In this document: positions 16,587 through 25,927 of the stretch, piece by piece
How the letters are laid out: every line of letters starts with the position of its first letter
Position numbering within the stretch: the stretch's first letter is position 1
Source: a virus
IMG/VR virus record: IMGVR_UViG_3300023284_001347
Coordinates: 1 to 27,829 of that record
Strand: one strand, 5' to 3'
Length of the DNA: 27,829 nucleotides
Notes under the pieces: generated by a model
Told to the model about the DNA's origin: nothing
What the model saw: only the letters and a program-made list of their open reading frames with translations
Database searches by the model: none
Position numbers and translations under genes: made by a program

Positions 16587-17978
16587 CTAAACTTCCTCCT
16601 TCGCCAAGTCAATATACGGCGCATCTTTTGAATGCGGGGTAGTATATTTATTCCCGTTGTCGTTTAATTCATCCTGTGTCGGTATTTTTGACATAATAAA
16701 ACCCTGCCAATTGAAACACTCCTCAAAGCGCATCGGATTAATACATTTAACCATCTCAAGTAAATCCCCGGCCTTCTTGTAGAATTCCTCTGCCTCTTTG
16801 AGCCCTTTTGATTTATGTATTTTTTGACCAAGCGACAAATGGGCCATGGCTAAATGAGAGATCACATTTTCATCGTGTGGTTTAAGATCAAGAACGCCAG
16901 TCAATTCAGAAATACATTCCTCAAAGCGTTCATATTGATAAAAAAACAAGCCCCTTTGGACATCGAAAAGAATTGTATTTGGACAACTCTTTTCACCTAC
17001 CTCTAAAATCTGTAACTGTTTGTCAAGATCCTTGAAATGTTTAGTAGCTTCTCCCAAATACGCATCCACAAATCTTGGATATAACCGGATAGCCTCTGAA
17101 AAGTTTCCTTTCTGATATTGCAATGCCGCCCGTTTCATATCCCATAACTGCTCCATTACATGTTGGGAATTCGGCATCTTATCGTCTGGTTTTAAATCGT
17201 TCGATGGTTCAATAAGCATCGTCCATCCATACATCCTTTTATTCTCAGATATAATTTTATAACCAGTTACATCCAGAAGTCTTTGAAGGTGCCACCTAGA
17301 CCACGCATTGATATGATCTGGGTGAAAATGCTCATCGAAGGTATCGAATGTCCCGCCACCCCAACGCATCATCTCCTCCATCCAAATAGGAGTAGCAATA
17401 TAGAGACTCCCGCCGGCTTTGATAGTTGGTTTGAGTTTCAATAAAAGTTCTTTCGGATCTGGGATATGCTCTAAAGTGTGATAGATGCAAACAAGATCGT
17501 ATTTCTTTTTAAAATCGAAATCTTTTGAAACATTGATATCAAAAGCGTGTTTAGCATAACGCCTATAAGTGGTGGTCAACTCTGATCCTGTTATATCCTT
17601 TATTTTAAACTTATCCCGTATCCATCTTAGAAAATAACCTATCCCTGATCCAATCTCTCCAACGCTTATCTCCTCTGCTTTCTTATTTTTGAGAAGTTCC
17701 TTGATCCAAGGATTTAAAAATTTATCGTGATAACCAACTTTACGGTTTGTTGTCAGAAGATTCTTAATATTAACCTGAATGCTATCCCTATAAGACTTGT
17801 CGTAATAGGTTTCATATTCAGACACGTCATGAAATCTATCAAAGGTGATAAATCCACATTGCTTACAGACCATCATATTTTCAGCTTTGGCCCGGAAGAT
17901 ATCAGCGTCCATCCATTCTTTTCCGTCACATATGAAACATGTTTTATCTATTTTCTTGAGTTCTAAGCCAGGCAGCAT
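16587..17978 (-). CDS. Zinc-ribbon class I methyltransferase with C-terminal TPR region
   Basis: A 463-residue protein in three parts. Residues 14-41 hold two CxxC pairs (C14, C17, C38, C41), a zinc ribbon. Residues about 95-210 are a SAM-dependent methyltransferase: motif I GEIGSGIGYF (107-116), an acidic strand end at ITGSELT, HTLEHIPDP (167-175) and GGSLYIATP (189-197), as in the Methyltransf_23 group found in surface-sugar clusters. Residues about 280-430 have helical pairs that look like TPR repeats. Similar enzymes modify sugars in O-antigen or capsule gene clusters. It overlaps the epimerase gene by 35 bases. The substrate is unknown; methylation of a sugar or of a protein-bound glycan is inferred. 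Confidence 0.75.
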   Translation of the reverse strand: MLPGLELKKIDKTCFICDGKEWMDADIFRAKAENMMVCKQCGFITFDRFHDVSEYETYYDKSYRDSIQVNIKNLLTTNRKVGYHDKFLNPWIKELLKNKKAEEISVGEIGSGIGYFLRWIRDKFKIKDITGSELTTTYRRYAKHAFDINVSKDFDFKKKYDLVCIYHTLEHIPDPKELLLKLKPTIKAGGSLYIATPIWMEEMMRWGGGTFDTFDEHFHPDHINAWSRWHLQRLLDVTGYKIISENKRMYGWTMLIEPSNDLKPDDKMPNSQHVMEQLWDMKRAALQYQKGNFSEAIRLYPRFVDAYLGEATKHFKDLDKQLQILEVGEKSCPNTILFDVQRGLFFYQYERFEECISELTGVLDLKPHDENVISHLAMAHLSLGQKIHKSKGLKEAEEFYKKAGDLLEMVKCINPMRFEECFNWQGFIMSKIPTQDELNDNGNKYTTPHSKDAPYIDLAKEEV

Positions 17979-18804
17979 AAAGTTTTATCCCTTCTTTTAT
18001 TTTTATCTCAGGTTTCCAATTCAAAAGCGCTTGAGTCAATTTGTAGGCTGGAGCCAGTTCATTTTGTAAATCCCCTTTTCGTTTTTCTTTGTGTATTACA
18101 GAAACATCTCCTATATTTTGCCTTACAAGATCGGCCAATTCTTTCACTGAAATGTCCTCATCCCCGCAGATATCTAAAATCTCATCTTTCAATGGAATAT
18201 GCCTATTGACTAATTTCTCACAAGCCAAAGCAAGATCATTAATGTACAAATAACACCTTGTAGGTGTTCCCTCACCGAAAATTGTAATGGGTTCACCTTT
18301 CAAGGCCTTACCAACAAAATTACATAGTGCCGTTCCGCTTCTGGCACCTGGCCCGTACAATGTCCCAAGCCTGACGATACAAGTCGATATTGAATAAGTA
18401 GCGGACCATGATTGACATACCATCTCCCCTGCCAGCTTACTCATCGTGTAAGGATGAGCATTCTGTGGCCATCCCTCACACCAAGCAGAACTCATATAAT
18501 AGAAATCAGGGATTTTCTTTTTCTTTACCCATTCCAGAACATTGGCTGTTCCGACAATATTGCTTTCTATGGCTTCAACAGGATTCTCATGAACAACATT
18601 CACATTTGCAGAAGCGGCAAAGTGTAAAACGATATCCACATAAGGCAAATTAAGCCCATGGTTGCAAATATTCCATCCCATGACTCCTTTTTTCGCATAT
18701 GCAAGGGCCGGTTTATCTATCCTCGTAATTTCGTGATCCTTACTTAAATAATTGGCAACGTAGTTTCCAAGCCACCCTTCACTTCCCGTAATCGCTACCC
18801 TCAT
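17944..18804 (-). CDS. NAD-dependent nucleotide-sugar epimerase/dehydratase (extended SDR)
   Basis: ATG 18804 (286 residues) is preferred to ATG 18828 because it has AGGAGG just upstream and places the cofactor loop at the N-terminus as usual. The Rossmann motif is GSEGWLG (residues 7-13). A catalytic Ser lies in MSSAW, and the Tyr-Lys pair is YTMSK. Later parts include RLGTLYGPGARSG and GTPTRCYLYINDLALA, a typical sugar-nucleotide pattern. Family members convert UDP- or dTDP-sugars by 4-epimerisation, dehydration or reduction. The substrate cannot be read from sequence. It starts the stretch after the structured gap, with the methyltransferase gene overlapping its end, so both probably modify the same sugar. 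Confidence 0.85.
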   Translation of the reverse strand: MRVAITGSEGWLGNYVANYLSKDHEITRIDKPALAYAKKGVMGWNICNHGLNLPYVDIVLHFAASANVNVVHENPVEAIESNIVGTANVLEWVKKKKIPDFYYMSSAWCEGWPQNAHPYTMSKLAGEMVCQSWSATYSISTCIVRLGTLYGPGARSGTALCNFVGKALKGEPITIFGEGTPTRCYLYINDLALACEKLVNRHIPLKDEILDICGDEDISVKELADLVRQNIGDVSVIHKEKRKGDLQNELAPAYKLTQALLNWKPEIKIKEGIKLYAAWLRTQENR

Positions 18805-18816
18805 AAACCTCCTAAT

Positions 18817-18876
18817 AAAAAAGGCCATACAGGAAAAACTCTCCCATATGGCCTATCAAAGCTTTTGTATGGCCTT
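18817..18876 (-). terminator. Terminator-like hairpin with competing alternative, before epimerase start
   Basis: On the minus strand a 5' arm AAGGCCATAC (18876-18867) can pair perfectly over 10 bp with GTATGGCCTT (18830-18821), followed by TTTTTT (18822-18817) and ATTAGGAGG. A second copy, AGGCCATA (18854-18847), can pair with the same 3' arm over 8 bp. The two stems exclude each other. The T run then leads directly into the epimerase ribosome binding site. It may end transcripts from the GHKL gene or tune entry into the epimerase gene. Confidence 0.55.
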
Positions 18877-18881
18877 AGTTT

Positions 18882-18914
18882 AAAAGGCGTATCAACTTGC
18901 GAAGTATCGCCTTT
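18882..18914 (-). terminator. Second hairpin with short T run in the 18805-18990 gap
   Basis: The minus strand reads AAAGGCG (18914-18908), an inner stem ACTT-CGC-AAGT, then CGCCTTTT (18889-18882). The outer stem is 7 bp, the inner one 4 bp, and four Ts form the end. It lies some 75 bases after the GHKL stop codon and 6 bases before the next hairpin. The tandem layout is like that of double terminators. The gap 18805-18990 holds no gene I can support. Confidence 0.45.
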
Positions 18915-18990
18915 AAATCTCTAATGATGCTTAAAACAATTTCCTTATGGTTAGGTTTTAATTGAATCTCCTTTAGTTAGTTTGCGACTA

Positions 18991-20439
18991 TCACTCATTT
19001 CCAAAAATCTGTTGTCTCGCCTGATACCCTATTTTCGCTAATAGCTGACTATATTTTTCTGAAGTCGTGTCAGTTTCAGATTTAACATATTTTTCAAACC
19101 GCAGAGGCAATTGTCCTGTTTTATTTATGACCCCATAATTTGCAATTAATCCAATAATGTTACTCAAAAAAGAAAATCTTTTTTCTGGCCCTGTTGGAGG
19201 TTTTCTTAAAGCTTTAACAAGCGGATCATTTTGGGAAACCTTTATCGTTTTTACCCTACCGTTAAAATCTAATTTTCCAAATCCATCATCTTCCGACAAA
19301 TCACAAAATATTATTTGTACTGCCCCCATACCTATATTATTTAAAACCTTATCTCCAACCTGGATATTCTTTGCCTTTTGCCGTTTTCTTTTATCCTCTG
19401 GATCTACAGTCCCTTTCGTATCACCTTCTCCTCTTTTTTCCTTCTCTTTTAGAGTATCTAATAATTTACTTAGATCCTCATTGACTTGATTCTGAAAAAG
19501 ATCAGAAGAAAATTGATCAGCCGCCTCATGCGCCATTTGAAGAACTGGTTTACAAATATTCTCAACCGTTGTTTCCAATTCCTCCTTTAAATCTGCAAGG
19601 TCGTCTTTATTTTTAGTCAAATTCCAGTCATCTGATAAATCCACCCAACCCGCAATTCTTTCAAAATTATAATCCCCACATCCGAATCCAGTTGATGATA
19701 AATTGGAAATCACCCGGTATTTGTAACGGTAGGTTAAGCCACACCTTGGGTTTTCAACTCCAGTTGGAACGATTCCAATGTTAATCTTTATTTCCTTTCC
19801 TTTAACATATCCAGAGGCCTCCAAGATGTTCTGTCTTTGGGGCCATTTAAATGCTTTCAAAACAAATTTAGATTCATTCAGCTTAGAAAGTTTTATCCTC
19901 GCTCCGTCTTCAATTGCCAGACTATATGTAAAACCAAGCCAATTAATTAATTTTTCAAATGCCTTCCCTTCAGGGAATCTTTTCCCTCTATCAAAATCTA
20001 TTTTCTCAAAAACGATTGACGTCCCTATTTCTTCGTTTTCTGATTTATTTATAATTGGATCAGGGATATACCAGTCTGGGGTCTTTGAAATCCTATGCCA
20101 ATCGGCTTCTACTTCAAATGTTTTACCTTTGCTTGTTGTCTTAATAATTGTCCTTCCCCACAACCAAACAGCGACATCTTTACAGCCAATTCCATAACGT
20201 CCAATCATTCTTTTTCCTTCGTGTGGTTCGTGCATGCCAGGAGTGACTAAAGCCAATACATTTTTACAACCTATTCCGTTATCCTCAATTTTTAAGTACC
20301 TGTGACCCCACTTTATTTCAATGTCTTTTGAATCTGCGTCTAATGAATTATCAATTAATTCTCCAAGCATAATCTTCCAGTCTTGCCGACAGTTCCTCAT
20401 TGATTCTAAAATGTGTGGTGTAGGACATACGTTAGCCAT
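18991..20439 (-). CDS. GHKL-type ATPase (Hsp90/MORC/MutL-like)
   Basis: A 482-residue protein whose first ~190 residues carry the full GHKL ATP-binding set: N box ELIDNSLDA (27-35) with catalytic Glu and Mg-binding Asn, G1 box IEDNGIGC (51-58), and lid G2 box GRYGIGCKD (80-88). A middle domain follows (about 200-300), then a helical region with a charged KEKEKRGEGDTKG linker near 345, and a C-terminal domain of about 130 residues (KNIQVGDKVLNN onward). There is no nuclease or kinase motif. MORC-like GHKL ATPases occur in bacterial restriction and defence islands and in phages. It starts at ATG 20439 with GGAGGT and overlaps the upstream helical protein by 8 bases, so the two are translated together. 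Confidence 0.85.
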   Translation of the reverse strand: MANVCPTPHILESMRNCRQDWKIMLGELIDNSLDADSKDIEIKWGHRYLKIEDNGIGCKNVLALVTPGMHEPHEGKRMIGRYGIGCKDVAVWLWGRTIIKTTSKGKTFEVEADWHRISKTPDWYIPDPIINKSENEEIGTSIVFEKIDFDRGKRFPEGKAFEKLINWLGFTYSLAIEDGARIKLSKLNESKFVLKAFKWPQRQNILEASGYVKGKEIKINIGIVPTGVENPRCGLTYRYKYRVISNLSSTGFGCGDYNFERIAGWVDLSDDWNLTKNKDDLADLKEELETTVENICKPVLQMAHEAADQFSSDLFQNQVNEDLSKLLDTLKEKEKRGEGDTKGTVDPEDKRKRQKAKNIQVGDKVLNNIGMGAVQIIFCDLSEDDGFGKLDFNGRVKTIKVSQNDPLVKALRKPPTGPEKRFSFLSNIIGLIANYGVINKTGQLPLRFEKYVKSETDTTSEKYSQLLAKIGYQARQQIFGNE

Positions 20440-21082
20440 TTTTAATACCTCCGCCGATGCTCTCTGCTACTGATATTAGGATTTGAGCTATTTTGAAATG
20501 CGTTTTTTTTGGGCATCTGTCTAATTCCCTATTCACAAAATCACTGATCCTCGATCTTGCTTTCATTGAATCCCAAACCACATCTTCATTGTAGGTTGGA
20601 TTATGGTCTATTTTTGTTTTTGGAAGTATTGCCTTTAAAAACCGAGCAGTGCTTAATTCAGTTCCGTTGGATTGTAATTTTCCTAAAGCGGTTTCAAATT
20701 CTTTGTCTGGGATGGATTTCAATTTTCTCGATCTTGCTGAAATTTCTTTCGTCAAACCAAGTTCTGCAATTGTGGGGGTTGAATTAATGGGTGGTTGACT
20801 ACCTCTACCACCCGTCTTTTTCTTGAATTGTCCAGCTTCACCCTTATTCTTCTCCCCCCCCTCCAATATCTCGCCTAGCTTCCGCTCCGCCCTTATTTTG
20901 TATTCGGCGGCCCTGTTGATTAATTCAAAGCTTGCCCCGATCCGCTTTGCATATACCCTAGCAGCCTCGGAAATGTCAGATAATTGCTTGGCCTCAGATA
21001 CCGTTTTACATTCAGCTAAAAGCTGTGTGCATTTGCTGAGTTTTACCAAAACTTGATCGTTTGGAGTTTGGTCTTTCACCAC
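20432..21082 (-). CDS. Helical phage protein, partner of the GHKL ATPase
   Basis: A 216-residue protein of a kind frequent in phages, prophages and integrative elements but without a named function. The pattern TVSEAKQLSDISEAARVYAKR, then INRAAEYKIRAERKLGEIL, then PTIAELGLTKEISARSRKLKSIP and a following ETALGKL is recognisable. The helices around 25-75 and 110-150 suggest DNA binding, with ELGLTKEISARSRKL resembling a helix-turn-helix as in ParB-type proteins. The start is GTG 21082 or GTG 21079. Its last 8 bases are the first codons of the GHKL gene (ATGGCTAA). It may direct the ATPase to DNA; this is inference. Confidence 0.7.
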   Translation of the reverse strand: MVKDQTPNDQVLVKLSKCTQLLAECKTVSEAKQLSDISEAARVYAKRIGASFELINRAAEYKIRAERKLGEILEGGEKNKGEAGQFKKKTGGRGSQPPINSTPTIAELGLTKEISARSRKLKSIPDKEFETALGKLQSNGTELSTARFLKAILPKTKIDHNPTYNEDVVWDSMKARSRISDFVNRELDRCPKKTHFKIAQILISVAESIGGGIKNG

Positions 21083-21103: not shown

Positions 21104-21922
21104 CTATTTTGCATAATCTTTATTCCAGACAAATTGGAAAGACGCCTTTCTCCATAATTTTTCGTATTCATCCAACGGATAAGCCTGCTCTGCATCACTC
21201 AAACTCTTCTCAGGTTCTGGATGCACCTCACACAAAAATCCATCTGCACCGGCCACTATCCCGGCCAGTGTCATGGATTCAACTAAATCACGCCTTCCTG
21301 TTCCGTGAGATCCATCAACCAATATAGGCAATCCAGTCATCCTCTTAACAGCAGCAATCAAGGAAATGGACAGATCCCACCTTACATGGTTCATATGTGT
21401 GGATGATCCACGTTCAATTAGAATCGCATTTGTCTTCCCGTTCCTGACTAAATACTCAGCCGCGCCTAAGAACTCATCAAGCGTTGCACCCATATTTCTT
21501 TTTAGTGTAACTGTCTTTTCCTGGTAAGACAGAACATTTAACAACCGATAATCCTGCATATGCCTTGCACCAACTTGAAAAGCATCCACATAATCATCTA
21601 AAAAGTCTATGTCGTCACATCCAAACACTTCAGAGATAATCTTAAGATTATGTCTATGTGCCACATCCGAGAACATCGTTAATTTTCCTATATCAAGCCC
21701 GAAATCTTTCGGTGGGTAAGTACCGGCTCTAACCACTCCCCCGCGCATGTAGGTACAACCGACACGGCTTAATTCCAACGCGATTGTTTCAACTTGGTTT
21801 TTGTCTTCAATAGAGCAAGGCCCTGCAATGACTATCATTTCTTGTTCTTTGTGAGGAATGGATAGGACCGTAGGATAGTTAGGTTTAGGGCCCCAGGATC
21901 TTTTATGATCCAATTCACTCAT
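21104..21922 (-). CDS. Divergent type I DAHP synthase / keto-sugar-acid synthase
   Basis: A 272-residue TIM-barrel enzyme of the DAHP synthase / KDO-8-P synthase superfamily, which joins phosphoenolpyruvate to an aldose phosphate. The metal ligands are all present: Cys36 in GPCSIED, His206 in VDGSHGTGRRD, Glu232 in CEVHP and Asp243 in LSDAEQ. GARHMQ (118-123), LKRNMGAT (140-147) and ERGSST (170-175) are also retained. The substrate loop is changed: after RGG (60-62) it reads VVRAGTYPP instead of the usual AFKPRTSPY, so the Lys and Arg that bind substrate phosphates in DAHP synthase are altered. No feedback ACT or other regulatory domain is present. It overlaps the 100-residue gene as ATGA. 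It is probably active, with a substrate that may not be erythrose-4-phosphate. Confidence 0.85.
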   Translation of the reverse strand: MSELDHKRSWGPKPNYPTVLSIPHKEQEMIVIAGPCSIEDKNQVETIALELSRVGCTYMRGGVVRAGTYPPKDFGLDIGKLTMFSDVAHRHNLKIISEVFGCDDIDFLDDYVDAFQVGARHMQDYRLLNVLSYQEKTVTLKRNMGATLDEFLGAAEYLVRNGKTNAILIERGSSTHMNHVRWDLSISLIAAVKRMTGLPILVDGSHGTGRRDLVESMTLAGIVAGADGFLCEVHPEPEKSLSDAEQAYPLDEYEKLWRKASFQFVWNKDYAK

Positions 21923-22221
21923 CTTTTTCTCAACTTCATTGGCTCAGTATGTGTATGATGACCGATAGATTTATCAATTCTCCAATAACCTTCCCCGCTA
22001 GAAAAACCATTAGCAGACGCTCTTGTTTCAGCTTCATAAAAAAGAACAGTCTGTTTTCTGACTAAATCTTTTTCTTCTTCAATGGTTAATTCTCTCTCTG
22101 GCTTCTGTTGAGTCGCCCGGATTGCTTTTAAGCCATCCACTAACAAGGTATCAGACCAAAAAGGGACAATAATCCTCAATCTTGTCAAAGAACATGTCAT
22201 CAAGTTTATTTTCTGACTCAT
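21919..22221 (-). CDS. Unknown 100-residue protein coupled to DAHP synthase
   Basis: A 100-residue protein that I do not recognise. It has an N-terminal strand region (INLMTCSLTRLRIIVPFW), a charged helix (PERELTIEEEKDLVRKQ), and a His/Arg-rich end with GHHTHTEPMKLRKR. It overlaps both neighbours as ATGA, so it is tightly tied to glycosyltransferase and keto-sugar synthase genes. I looked for chorismate mutase and small binding-protein motifs and saw none. Confidence 0.6.
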   Translation of the reverse strand: MSQKINLMTCSLTRLRIIVPFWSDTLLVDGLKAIRATQQKPERELTIEEEKDLVRKQTVLFYEAETRASANGFSSGEGYWRIDKSIGHHTHTEPMKLRKR

Positions 22222-23513
22222 ATGACCTTATACACAAAATCCCGGTAATCCGGCTGTGTTTTGGAAAGAGACGTTTCCGTTTGATAATAGATCCATGTCG
22301 GAATATTTAGTTCCTGATATTTGTATCTTTTAGACATACGGTTGAAAAACTCTAATCCCTCCCATGCCCTCAACCCGTCACAGAATTTTAGTTCATGAAA
22401 CATCCAAGCACGAACCATAGCCCCACCCATATGGTGGGAGTAATTGTCAAACACTTCTCCGTGTTGATTCCTATAAGACGGATATATTACACAGAGATTA
22501 TTATCTTTTTTTATTACATCAACAAGCATTTGAAGTGCATGTGGTAAAAGTTCATCATCGGCATCGACGCGAATGTAATATTTTCCTTTAGCGTTCTTTA
22601 ATGCTCGATTGCAAGCAGATCCTAAACCCTCGTTCTTTCCTCCCATTAATTCTACTCTTCTATCGACCGTACATGATCCTATTTGGATAAATGTATTGTC
22701 TGTACTGCCATCATCATATAAAATATATTCAAAATCCTTGTATGTCTGATTCAAAACGGATTTAATAGTTCTCTCGATAGTCTTCTCAGCATTATGAGCG
22801 CAAGTATAAACCGTGACCTTTGGAAGGTGATTCATTGACAGGATTTCAGGATATAAGATTAGTTTCTCATAAATATTTCTATCGCTCATATCCCCTTCAC
22901 ACACATCAAAAAGCTTCTTGATTGTAAGAATGTCCTCTGGCCAATCCAAAGAAATCCTTCCTTTTATGTCAGAGGAGGAATGAAATGAAACCGCTTTTAT
23001 TTTTGCTTTAAGTTCTTGCCTTCTAAAAGCATAACTCAAATATTCAACATCCCGGTCTTTATGATATTCATACGCGCGCGTAAGGAAATCTTTAGAGACG
23101 ACTTCTGAATCAGTCCCACGCAGAACATCAGACATATAGGTATAATCTAATTTTCCTTCTTCATGATGTCTTAAGATTAATCCCATCAAAACCGTATCCA
23201 CAAACAAATCATCATGGGTCACTCTAACAACAGGATCAAACCCGTATTCCATAGATGCCCAAAAGAATCTCCCCAATGGATTTGTATCATGGCCTCTAAA
23301 AACCAGTGGTTTCAAATCCTTCGTTGCATCTATCAATGGGTCATCTTCATGACTAGATGGGATAGCAAGACAAACCGGATAATCAGATTCCATTAACCGT
23401 TTCACCAACCACCAAATAGCTGGCTTCCCGTAAAACTCAGTCAATGGCTTATTTGGTATTCGTCTTGATTTAACCCTTGAGCATAAAACTATTCCCGGTT
23501 TATTTTTTATCAT
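22218..23513 (-). CDS. Fusion of SpsF/KdsB-like cytidylyltransferase and family 2 glycosyltransferase
   Basis: ATG 23513 is preferred (431 residues) since AGGAAG lies 8 bases before it; an upstream GTG at 23522 lies inside the binding-site area. Residues about 5-215 match the CMP-sugar synthetase family (SpsF, KdsB): SRVKSRRIPNKPL at the start, PLGRFFWA, VVRVTHDDLFVD, and RISLDWPEDI near the end. Residues about 230-428 match GT2: VTVYTCAHNAEKTIERTI, YDDGSTDNT and RVDADDEL (the DxD metal site). The first domain would activate a keto sugar acid with CMP and the second transfer a sugar. The gene starts inside the 3' end of a small membrane protein gene. Substrate and acceptor are not known. Confidence 0.8.
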   Translation of the reverse strand: MIKNKPGIVLCSRVKSRRIPNKPLTEFYGKPAIWWLVKRLMESDYPVCLAIPSSHEDDPLIDATKDLKPLVFRGHDTNPLGRFFWASMEYGFDPVVRVTHDDLFVDTVLMGLILRHHEEGKLDYTYMSDVLRGTDSEVVSKDFLTRAYEYHKDRDVEYLSYAFRRQELKAKIKAVSFHSSSDIKGRISLDWPEDILTIKKLFDVCEGDMSDRNIYEKLILYPEILSMNHLPKVTVYTCAHNAEKTIERTIKSVLNQTYKDFEYILYDDGSTDNTFIQIGSCTVDRRVELMGGKNEGLGSACNRALKNAKGKYYIRVDADDELLPHALQMLVDVIKKDNNLCVIYPSYRNQHGEVFDNYSHHMGGAMVRAWMFHELKFCDGLRAWEGLEFFNRMSKRYKYQELNIPTWIYYQTETSLSKTQPDYRDFVYKVI

Positions 23514-23682
23514 CTGCTTCACTTCCTAATTGCTGTAACCTATTTCTAAATCCCCCTGGCCCGTCCGGGTCTTGCTGTAACCACCGCCATGCGTACCCGA
23601 TAAACGCTAACGCTCCTATTACAAGACCGAAAATAAACATGAAAAGAATAGAGAAAATAAACAAAAGTGGATCAATAGTCAT
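23500..23682 (-). CDS. Small single-pass membrane protein
   Basis: A 60-residue protein with one long membrane helix (about 6-31, LLFIFSILFMFIFGLVIG) and a polar tail with QQDPDGPGGFRNRLQQLG. It overlaps the radical SAM gene as ATGA and the next gene by 14 bases. It could anchor the neighbouring sugar enzymes at the membrane, or act in lysis or superinfection exclusion; the sequence does not decide. Confidence 0.6.
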   Translation of the reverse strand: MTIDPLLFIFSILFMFIFGLVIGALAFIGYAWRWLQQDPDGPGGFRNRLQQLGSEADDKK

Positions 23683-24605
23683 TTAATATTTATGTTATAA
23701 GACGCCCAAGATGTACAATTCACACATACAGGATGTTTATAATTCACCATCTTTGCATCGTTCCTAATATCGGATATTGCTTTAGAATTCCATATTTCGT
23801 TAATAGATTGTTTAGTCACATCCCCAACATACAGATCATCCAGCCACGGAATGCAGCAGGGGGCAACCCTTCCATCCCATGCAATTGTTAATCTCTGGAA
23901 CGGGAATCCGCAGTTCTTCCTTCCATTAACCTTAATTTTACTCTCATCGAAATACGCTCCAACCTTCGGAGGATTTCTTGGGAAGACTGGTTTGCTGTAG
24001 AATTGAGCTCCCCATCCTTCAACGTATTTCTTAACCGTTTCTTCTTCATCCCAATTTTCTTTCTGCTTTGTGAAATTAACCCGGATTGTATCAACGACTC
24101 CAAAATCCATTTTACTTGTTGCTAGAATCTCAAAATTTTTCATCACGGTTTTCAGCGGTCCGCCTGGTCTAATTGAAAAAGCTTTTTCCTCATCTATCGT
24201 ATCAATAGAAAAGATAACCATATTGAAAAACTCCATGGCATCTCGTGTGTTGGATGTAGTGTATGAACCATTTGTATTGATCATCAAATCCGTGAAATTT
24301 AACCAATAAGCATCTGATACAATCTCACAAAAATCAGGATGTATTGTAGATTCCCCCCGCCAATTTAATTTAACTGAGCTAACCCCAATATCTTTTGCCT
24401 CTTTTAGAATCCTTACAGCTAATTTCTTATCCATAAAATCTTTGGTAAAACCAGATGGAATTTCAGCCTGCGGGCACATGGGACAACGAAAATTACAAGC
24501 AGAAGCTAACTCAATATCTATATGTATAGGAGCATCGGTTAGAACCCCAGTTCCGGCTAGATTCCATTGTTTTCTATATTGTTGGTAATCAATAACCTGT
24601 TGCAT
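23679..24605 (-). CDS. Radical SAM enzyme with SPASM-like C-terminal cluster domain
   Basis: I choose ATG 24605 (308 residues) because it overlaps the terminase stop as TGATG; a TTG codon lies one codon earlier. The SAM-binding cluster motif is CNFRCPMC (Cys37, 41, 44, spacing Cx3Cx2C), followed by a GGE-like site RGES (83-86). The C-terminal part has extra cysteines at 232, 250, 251, 294 and 297, in GFPFQRLTIAWDGRVAPCC and HPVCVNC, as in SPASM domains that hold auxiliary iron-sulfur clusters. SPASM enzymes modify peptides, sulfatases or sugars. No precursor peptide gene is evident next to it. It is the first gene after terminase and co-directional with the sugar genes, so glycan or virion protein modification is possible. 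Confidence 0.85.
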   Translation of the reverse strand: MQQVIDYQQYRKQWNLAGTGVLTDAPIHIDIELASACNFRCPMCPQAEIPSGFTKDFMDKKLAVRILKEAKDIGVSSVKLNWRGESTIHPDFCEIVSDAYWLNFTDLMINTNGSYTTSNTRDAMEFFNMVIFSIDTIDEEKAFSIRPGGPLKTVMKNFEILATSKMDFGVVDTIRVNFTKQKENWDEEETVKKYVEGWGAQFYSKPVFPRNPPKVGAYFDESKIKVNGRKNCGFPFQRLTIAWDGRVAPCCIPWLDDLYVGDVTKQSINEIWNSKAISDIRNDAKMVNYKHPVCVNCTSWASYNINIK

Positions 24606-25927
24606 CAAACAAATGTATCCTGATACATCCCAAGACTCTCCACTTCCCCGAAAGTCTCAACTTCTCCTATGGAGAAACATCCTTGCGATATCTGCCAACA
24701 GGCTAAAGCCAAGGCAATCACGCAATCATCGTAAAACCCAATCGGTGCGGATCGCTTCAGCCTACCCGTGGCTGTCATTTGATACTCAAACGCTTCTAAT
24801 TCATGAATCAACTCCGGTATGTTTGGAAACCGTATCTCACTGTTTTCAATCTTAACGATCAGGTTATCTATCAGATCTCTTTTTGATCCTTCCGTGAATG
24901 TAAACGGCATTACCGGATACCCATCCCTCATCAACGATTCAACGAACATATCGCCGCCCATTCCAGTGGCATCCACAATCATCGGGGCCTTATTATATTT
25001 GTCACAAATAATCTTTATCCGCCGTTTCTGCAATTCCCAATCTATTTTGTTGAATCTCTCAAACTCCACCAATCTTCCCTTATCGTCCATTACACACATA
25101 ACCGTAAAGTCATGAAGCTTCGCTAAATCCACTCCCATCACATAAGATTGAGTCGGGGATGGCTTCATCAACGCTCCTTGAATACACGCACGCACATTCT
25201 TGAAAACCAATCCTCCTCCTTCTATAAACTCAGCCAAGTATTCCTGCCTGAAAACAGATTCCGGCAAAGACGCTTTTTCCTGTTCAATATCCAATGGATC
25301 TATAATGGGATTGTTACTGGTAGGATGATGGAAAGATTGTATGCGTTTATTCAGTGGGTCTAAACCTCTTAAATAATTCTGATAGAACCAGTTTTTTCCT
25401 TTAGGAGTTGAGATCATCAAAGCCCACCCTTTTTTATCAATTAACCTTTGTGAAATGTGTGAGTCCCAAATAGTAGGCTTAAGCCTTGCCGCTTCATCTA
25501 ATACCACCCAATCTAAACTCTCACCCAATAGGGAATCCGGGTTATCCCCGGACTTGCCCTTAATCTCAGAGATGAATCCCCAGATGTTCACAAACCTTAT
25601 CCGCATCTTGGCCTCAGACGCCTCCAACACTAAAGATTGATGAATTTTTTCAACAACGGCCCGGTACACTTCCCTGAACACCTTATTAGCCAGATCATAG
25701 CTAGGGGCAACAATCCATCCAATAGAATCCCTAGGATTTCTCTGACTCTCAACCAACCCCTCAAAAGCCGCAAGCTTAGACTTCCCCCACCTAACACCAG
25801 CATCAATGACCCTTATCTTAGCCTTACAATCATGTATCTCTAATTGATCCGGTCTTGGCTCATAATCAAAAAACGTGAAAGCCTTATGCTTATCGAAGTG
25901 TTCTGTCTTTTTTGTTTTTACCGCCAT
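24605..25927 (-). CDS. terL: Terminase large subunit
   Basis: A 440-residue DNA packaging motor from ATG 25927; a TTG at 25933 would add two residues. The ATPase part (about 1-220) has Walker A GVRWGKS (44-50), Walker B WVVLDEAAR (140-148) and the coupling motif MISTPKG (171-177). The nuclease part (about 255-440) is RNaseH-like, with MGVDLAKLHDF (Asp267) and MIVDATGMGGD (Asp319), and later acidic residues in LIHELEAFEY. It cuts the concatemer and pumps DNA through the portal. The start lies inside the previous small gene by 38 bases. The small subunit was not identified. Confidence 0.93.
   Translation of the reverse strand: MAVKTKKTEHFDKHKAFTFFDYEPRPDQLEIHDCKAKIRVIDAGVRWGKSKLAAFEGLVESQRNPRDSIGWIVAPSYDLANKVFREVYRAVVEKIHQSLVLEASEAKMRIRFVNIWGFISEIKGKSGDNPDSLLGESLDWVVLDEAARLKPTIWDSHISQRLIDKKGWALMISTPKGKNWFYQNYLRGLDPLNKRIQSFHHPTSNNPIIDPLDIEQEKASLPESVFRQEYLAEFIEGGGLVFKNVRACIQGALMKPSPTQSYVMGVDLAKLHDFTVMCVMDDKGRLVEFERFNKIDWELQKRRIKIICDKYNKAPMIVDATGMGGDMFVESLMRDGYPVMPFTFTEGSKRDLIDNLIVKIENSEIRFPNIPELIHELEAFEYQMTATGRLKRSAPIGFYDDCVIALALACWQISQGCFSIGEVETFGEVESLGMYQDTFV

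Follow-up and report, generated by a model that had tools for sequence, protein, structure and literature searches.

Two adjacent genes in the genome of a tailed phage, encoding a MORC-type GHKL ATPase and a dedicated helical partner, are on balance best explained as a mobile cargo module, translationally coupled and closed by a terminator, whose products would form a clamp on phage DNA. Proteins like MORC, MutL, and gyrase, all of them GHKL ATPases, dimerize upon ATP binding and clamp DNA or move it. We propose that ATP binding would shut a dimer of the MORC-type protein around DNA to form a clamp, that the partner would load this clamp on phage DNA or direct it there or to some particular DNA feature, and that the pair may organize, bridge, or shield the DNA of the phage while it is replicated and recombined. 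The simplest reading is a clamp with a dedicated adaptor as its loader, because the partner of such ATPases is mostly of the clamp-forming ParB type and because the setting of the related genes is one of replication and recombination. Whatever in this account goes beyond an intact ATP site, a constant partner, and a movable unit we infer.

A more elaborate version, which we hold only tentatively, is that of a two-part clamp in which the ATP-gated MORC protein works with an interchangeable adaptor, mostly a nucleotide-gated clamp of the ParB type, to organize or protect phage DNA, the two genes having spread as a cassette between unrelated phages. Several observations point away from the module reading: the pair studied here lies beside sugar genes in the late region, no promoter of its own was found, the predicted fold of its partner has no solved match, and the partner types are without detectable homology.

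The unit and its products

The window, by which we mean the whole 27.8-kb virus record that was analyzed, is that of a tailed phage, with genes for terminase, portal, head protease, major head protein, and tape measure. Sugar-related genes occupy the interval between terminase and portal as a block, and the two ORFs lie within it. Both are on the minus strand, where the ORF for the helical partner (20432..21082, 216 aa, GTG start) overlaps that for the ATPase (18991..20439, 482 aa, ATG start) by 8 nt (20432..20439), an arrangement likely to couple their translation. The coordinates and the overlap agree with the preliminary description of this DNA, as does the observation that the pair separates a DAHP-synthase-like keto-acid synthase gene upstream (21104..21922, minus strand; DAHP_synth_1, 5e-48; TIGR01361, 2e-72, below its cutoff) from an NAD-dependent epimerase/dehydratase gene downstream (17944..18804, minus strand; Epimerase, 1e-33). 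The epimerase ORF as called (17944-18828) begins within the terminator hairpin described below; because AGGAGG stands before the ATG at 18804, we moved the start from 18828 to that codon.

Two further genes near the pair deserve mention. In a single ORF at 22218-23522, an N-terminal cytidylyltransferase domain is fused to a family-2 glycosyltransferase; together with the DAHP-synthase-like gene, this ORF may provide for the synthesis, activation, and transfer of a 3-deoxy-2-keto sugar acid. A radical SAM/SPASM protein is encoded at 23679-24608, immediately after the terminase gene and at the head of the sugar block.

Two hairpins had been proposed to follow the pair, and they turned out to be unequal. 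The one that closes the unit, at 18822..18854 (minus strand, read 18854-18822), has a 15-bp stem and a 3-nt loop followed by a T-run (TTTTTATT), and is predicted to be a good intrinsic terminator; the other, at 18877..18920 (minus strand), is a weak inverted repeat with 13-nt arms that are 85% complementary. The 170-nt stretch with the hairpins folds better than shuffled versions (z = -2.6). No promoter of the pair's own was found in the window, where promoter-like matches were rarer than in shuffled sequence. The GC content of the pair (0.364 and 0.415) falls inside the window's range, and in codon fit the ATPase gene is ordinary, the partner gene being the lowest among the genes compared (0.026). 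A recent foreign origin was considered on the basis of composition and set aside; GC does not single out the pair, and the codon fit of the partner is too little to argue from.

The larger protein had been described as an intact GHKL ATPase, and this holds up well. It matches HATPase_c_3 (2e-13), and among 17 aligned relatives the GHKL motifs E27, D30/N31, D53-x-G55-x-G57, and G83-x-G85 are invariant, as are R242, W272, and K278 of the S5 region; the ATP site is intact. The AlphaFold model (mean pLDDT 74.5, parts of the C-terminal third being of low confidence) consists of a GHKL domain (approximately residues 1-145), an S5 domain (approximately 158-268), a long helix of 53 residues (285-337), and a small alpha/beta C-terminal domain (373-479); the succession of GHKL domain, S5 domain, and long helix is that of MORC proteins. 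In a Foldseek search, mouse Morc3 ranked second over the ATPase module, and human MORC4, SMCHD1, MORC2, and Hsp90 were also listed. A profile of the ATPase relatives, compared with solved structures, matched MORC2, MORC4, and MORC3 best (8e-13), ahead of MutL. The profile and the predicted fold thus assign the ATPase to the MORC type, which the preliminary description had brought up. MORC proteins carry an S5 signature, GhXhhpXXRhl, defined by Iyer, Abhiman, and Aravind (2008, PMC2292703); GLTYRYKYRVI in the window fits the loose form of this signature and not the strict form, which was found only in the L006 ATPase among the 19 phage-type members tested. Because the signature is present only in its loose form, we describe the protein as MORC-type without counting it as a strict member of the family.

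The 216-aa partner is, consistent with its original description, predicted to be all-helical (AlphaFold, mean pLDDT 83.8), with a helical bundle (residues 7-79), a linker, helices (112-152), a flexible linker, and a C-terminal helical hairpin (166-215). No match was found for it in Pfam or among PDB sequences, and no convincing fold match among solved structures. Its family is common in phages, usually adjoining other genes; in one of its members the protein is joined to an MT-A70 methylase, and the 38 downstream neighbors scanned at partner-family loci include 12 DEAD/ResIII helicases and 2 examples of the ATPase. Because of this gene company, DNA binding by the window's partner is a fair guess by analogy. 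Downstream of partner-family genes (L040, L049, L055, L081, L082, L086, L092, and others) there is often an ORF of roughly 500 aa.

The pair in other phages

Relatives of the ATPase are distant, and they were found in IMG/VR contigs by alignment-based scans; single-protein pattern scans matched nothing, and two-sequence alignments were needed. Among 50,697 phage records, the sole match over most of the ATPase was in mycobacteriophage Bobby. In total, we collected 32 distinct phage loci of this ATPase type, a count that includes the window and Bobby and excludes duplicates and one truncated locus (L130). Several of the phages concerned are related to one another (for example, those of loci L014-L020, and those of L128 and L129), and thus the independent events are fewer than 32. 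At every one of the 32 loci a small protein gene stands directly beside the ATPase gene, with an overlap or gap of 0 to 14 nt in the 16 pairs measured. The partner is mostly upstream; in the L008 group, L009, and L121, a ParB-type gene follows the ATPase.

The partners themselves differ. Those at 27 loci are ParB-type, one is DUF3102-type, one is unclassified, and three (window, L058, and L084) belong to the window's family. The ParB-type assignment was made with a partner profile at 26 loci, the 27th, L112, having a weak ParB_N match (0.016); this count is partly by construction, because the profile was built from these same partners, and the independent check on the class is the profile's match to solved Noc, Spo0J, and ParB structures at 5e-12. 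The DUF3102-type partner, that of L006, scores 7e-5, just under the Pfam cut-off. The L013 partner resembles DUF3102 by eye; because it has no Pfam match and no similarity to the L006 partner, that assignment was rejected and the protein is listed as unclassified.

Approached from the partner side, the window-type pair was reached in two further viral contigs, L058 and L084, and this disposes of the possibility, raised at the outset, that the two genes might never be adjacent elsewhere. Homology between the partner types was considered and dropped, with no support from hhalign (window family versus ParB-type, probability <1%). The ParB CTPase domain, present in most relatives' partners, was likewise undetected by hhalign in the window partner. 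A common C-terminal MORC-binding tail fared no better, its alignment scores not being clearly above those of shuffles or unpaired controls; a 10-residue likeness between the window and L013 partners (ILISVAESIG and ILISLCDSLG) has an E value of 0.22.

In a tree, 19 of the phage-type ATPases stand apart from nine other GHKL proteins with 96/93 support, and some long branches blur the detail within the groups. No ParB-type match was found in the loci of these nine.

Mobility, gene company, and competing roles

The unit had been proposed to be a moron, and the idea is largely supported by the recurrence of the pair and by presence and absence in the relatives of Bobby. In the window, a terminator follows the pair, no promoter of its own was found, and composition does not mark it as recently foreign. 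The Bobby neighborhood matched 50 mycobacteriophage records. In Redno2 and HokkenD, the flanks of Bobby gp93-gp97 are about 94 to 96% identical and contiguous, and the 3.47-kb Bobby insert, carrying a ParB-type gene and the ATPase gene, is absent at the same site, a comparison that records presence and absence and not the direction of change and that concerns Bobby and not the window. Because the insert is missing at the same site in sister phages, we take the family to behave as movable cargo. Thirteen further sister records among the matches listed (duplicate entries of one phage included) match 47% of the query, end to end over about 3.1 kb, as expected if their site is empty too. In the sets searched, no phage close enough to that of the window to show an empty site was found.

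The insert junctions show short similarity when Bobby is compared with its sisters. They fall at gene boundaries (L002 2358-5830), with a similar GGAGG...TGA on both sides, as if exchange had taken place at the ribosome-binding site and start codons.

The company kept by the pair bears on what it might do. Of 117 proteins encoded next to the pair at phage-type loci, the families seen most often include replication initiators, Sak4, RecE/YqaJ exonucleases, RecT, DnaB, and HNH; SSB-like proteins also occur. Most relatives' pairs lie in replication/recombination blocks; the window and L058 pairs lie in the late region, by glycosylation genes. Membership in a defense island, an early suggestion, is not supported by this placement or by the other evidence. 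No methylase, helicase, or nuclease adjoins the window pair, whose neighbors are the DAHPS-like synthase and the epimerase, and PADLOC returned only a marginal TmtA match on the window (0.0011). In 396 actinobacterial genomes, no phage-type ATPase member was found at the cut-off used (E <= 1e-22); the only two matches, at 4e-24 and 1e-22, are far weaker than the 1e-55 to 1e-166 that phage-type members score against a similar model.

A role in counter-defense, in which the pair would block host restriction or other DNA-targeting defenses by coating phage DNA or by mimicking or poisoning a host MORC/paraMORC restriction complex, seems unlikely to us but deserves consideration. By family, the nearest relatives in prokaryotes form part of restriction systems (PMC2292703), the pair is dispensable cargo in Bobby, and prophage ParB-fold domain fusions have been suggested to act in anti-defense (PMC12704722). 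However, no anti-restriction genes were identified among the neighbors, and many relatives are located inside replication/recombination blocks.

Rather less probable is that the pair serves superinfection control or defense against other phages, as a reduced MORC defense system whose partner recognizes foreign DNA. Such a role would be in keeping with the acquired-cargo behavior in Bobby and with the presence of MORC family proteins in bacterial restriction operons (PMC2292703), but neither protein was found to contain a nuclease, TIR, or HEPN effector, most relatives are among replication genes, and the PADLOC match is, as noted, marginal.

Could the placement in the sugar block itself be functional, with the pair acting alongside the glycosylation genes, for example, in DNA or virion modification? 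The L058 contig offers some encouragement, since there, too, the pair belongs to the late region and has genes for a glycosyltransferase and for methyltransferases directly after it. The genes run terminase, portal, head genes, partner, ATPase, glycosyltransferase, methyltransferases, and more glycosyltransferase-like ORFs, and all these flanking labels except that of the first glycosyltransferase come from our reading of the sequence. But this accounts for only 2 of the 32 loci, recombination genes surround the pair in L084, and in the window a terminator stands between the pair and the epimerase gene, so that we consider a sugar-related function improbable. One conserved block of the pair with sugar genes would have spoken against an insertion; the L058 glycosyltransferases are only a faint echo of such an arrangement, and in the other relatives the pair does not adjoin genes of this kind. 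The window terminase had no match in the L058 record, in a search run without a positive control. Finally, that the two are unrelated cargo genes lying together by chance is very hard to credit, for although members of the partner family abound in phages and mostly have other genes as neighbors, the same pair recurs in L058 and L084, a partner is present at 32 of 32 loci, and ParB-type matches occur at 26 of these 32 loci and at none of the 78 phage loci used as controls (Fisher p ~1e-19, with a ParB model built from these partners).

Relation to known systems

Prokaryotic MORC and paraMORC GHKL ATPases belong to restriction-modification operons (Iyer, Abhiman, and Aravind 2008, PMC2292703). 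The window ATPase resembles them in its GHKL and S5 domains, its intact motifs, its conserved S5 lysine, and a loose MORC-like G-x7-R-x-l. Unlike them, it has no adjoining SF2 helicase, restriction nuclease, or DNA methylase, and the phage-type ATPases are paired with ParB-, DUF3102-, or window-type partners, form a separate group in the tree, and are found in phage contigs. Eukaryotic MORC2, MORC3, and MORC4 give the best profile matches among solved structures, and MORC proteins and SMCHD1 are high fold matches; in contrast to these proteins, no CW zinc finger or hinge domain was found in the phage ATPase, the virus is prokaryotic, and the partner is a separate protein. There is also a likeness to ParABS and the ParB CTPases in that the partner of most phage-type ATPases matches ParB, Noc, and Spo0J, although the ATPase is a GHKL protein and not ParA and the window partner is not detectably ParB. 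With phage morons, the unit shares presence or absence at one site, as in Bobby, and a terminator after the window unit; it differs from them in that no promoter of its own was found at the window pair.

The pairing of a phage MORC-type ATPase with a small partner appears to be undescribed, in the sense that it was not found in the literature searched, outside which most subscription papers lie; within the same literature, we found no paper on GHKL/MORC and ParB pairing in phages. The words GHKL, MutL, and HATPase are absent from the main text of a 2025 survey of the ParB fold (PMC12704722).

The prokaryotic kin of MORC have so far been placed mainly in restriction operons. In animals and plants, MORC proteins silence transposons and clamp or compact DNA and chromatin. 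A compact phage MORC protein with one dedicated partner, mostly of the ParB clamp fold, could offer a minimal system for studying how MORC clamps act on DNA and are targeted to it. In PHROGs, the ATPase corresponds to families of unknown function only; phrog_6203, phrog_6077, and phrog_20521 match members, and our reading, if confirmed, would suggest a function for them.

Restriction-type neighbors are found beside some of the nine other GHKL proteins of the tree. In the viral contigs L022, L026, and L027, which hold three of the nine, a C5-methylase gene lies just upstream by sequence inspection; the GHKL ATPase is about 800 aa in L026 and L027 and is cut by the contig end in L022, and the arrangement looks like a phage-carried MORC-type restriction system. 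L003 (MT835895.1), the source of another of the nine and named "Bacteriophage sp.," has a restriction-type operon of GHKL, Z1, and DUF4420 genes together with other bacterial-looking genes, and it may be a piece of host chromosome.
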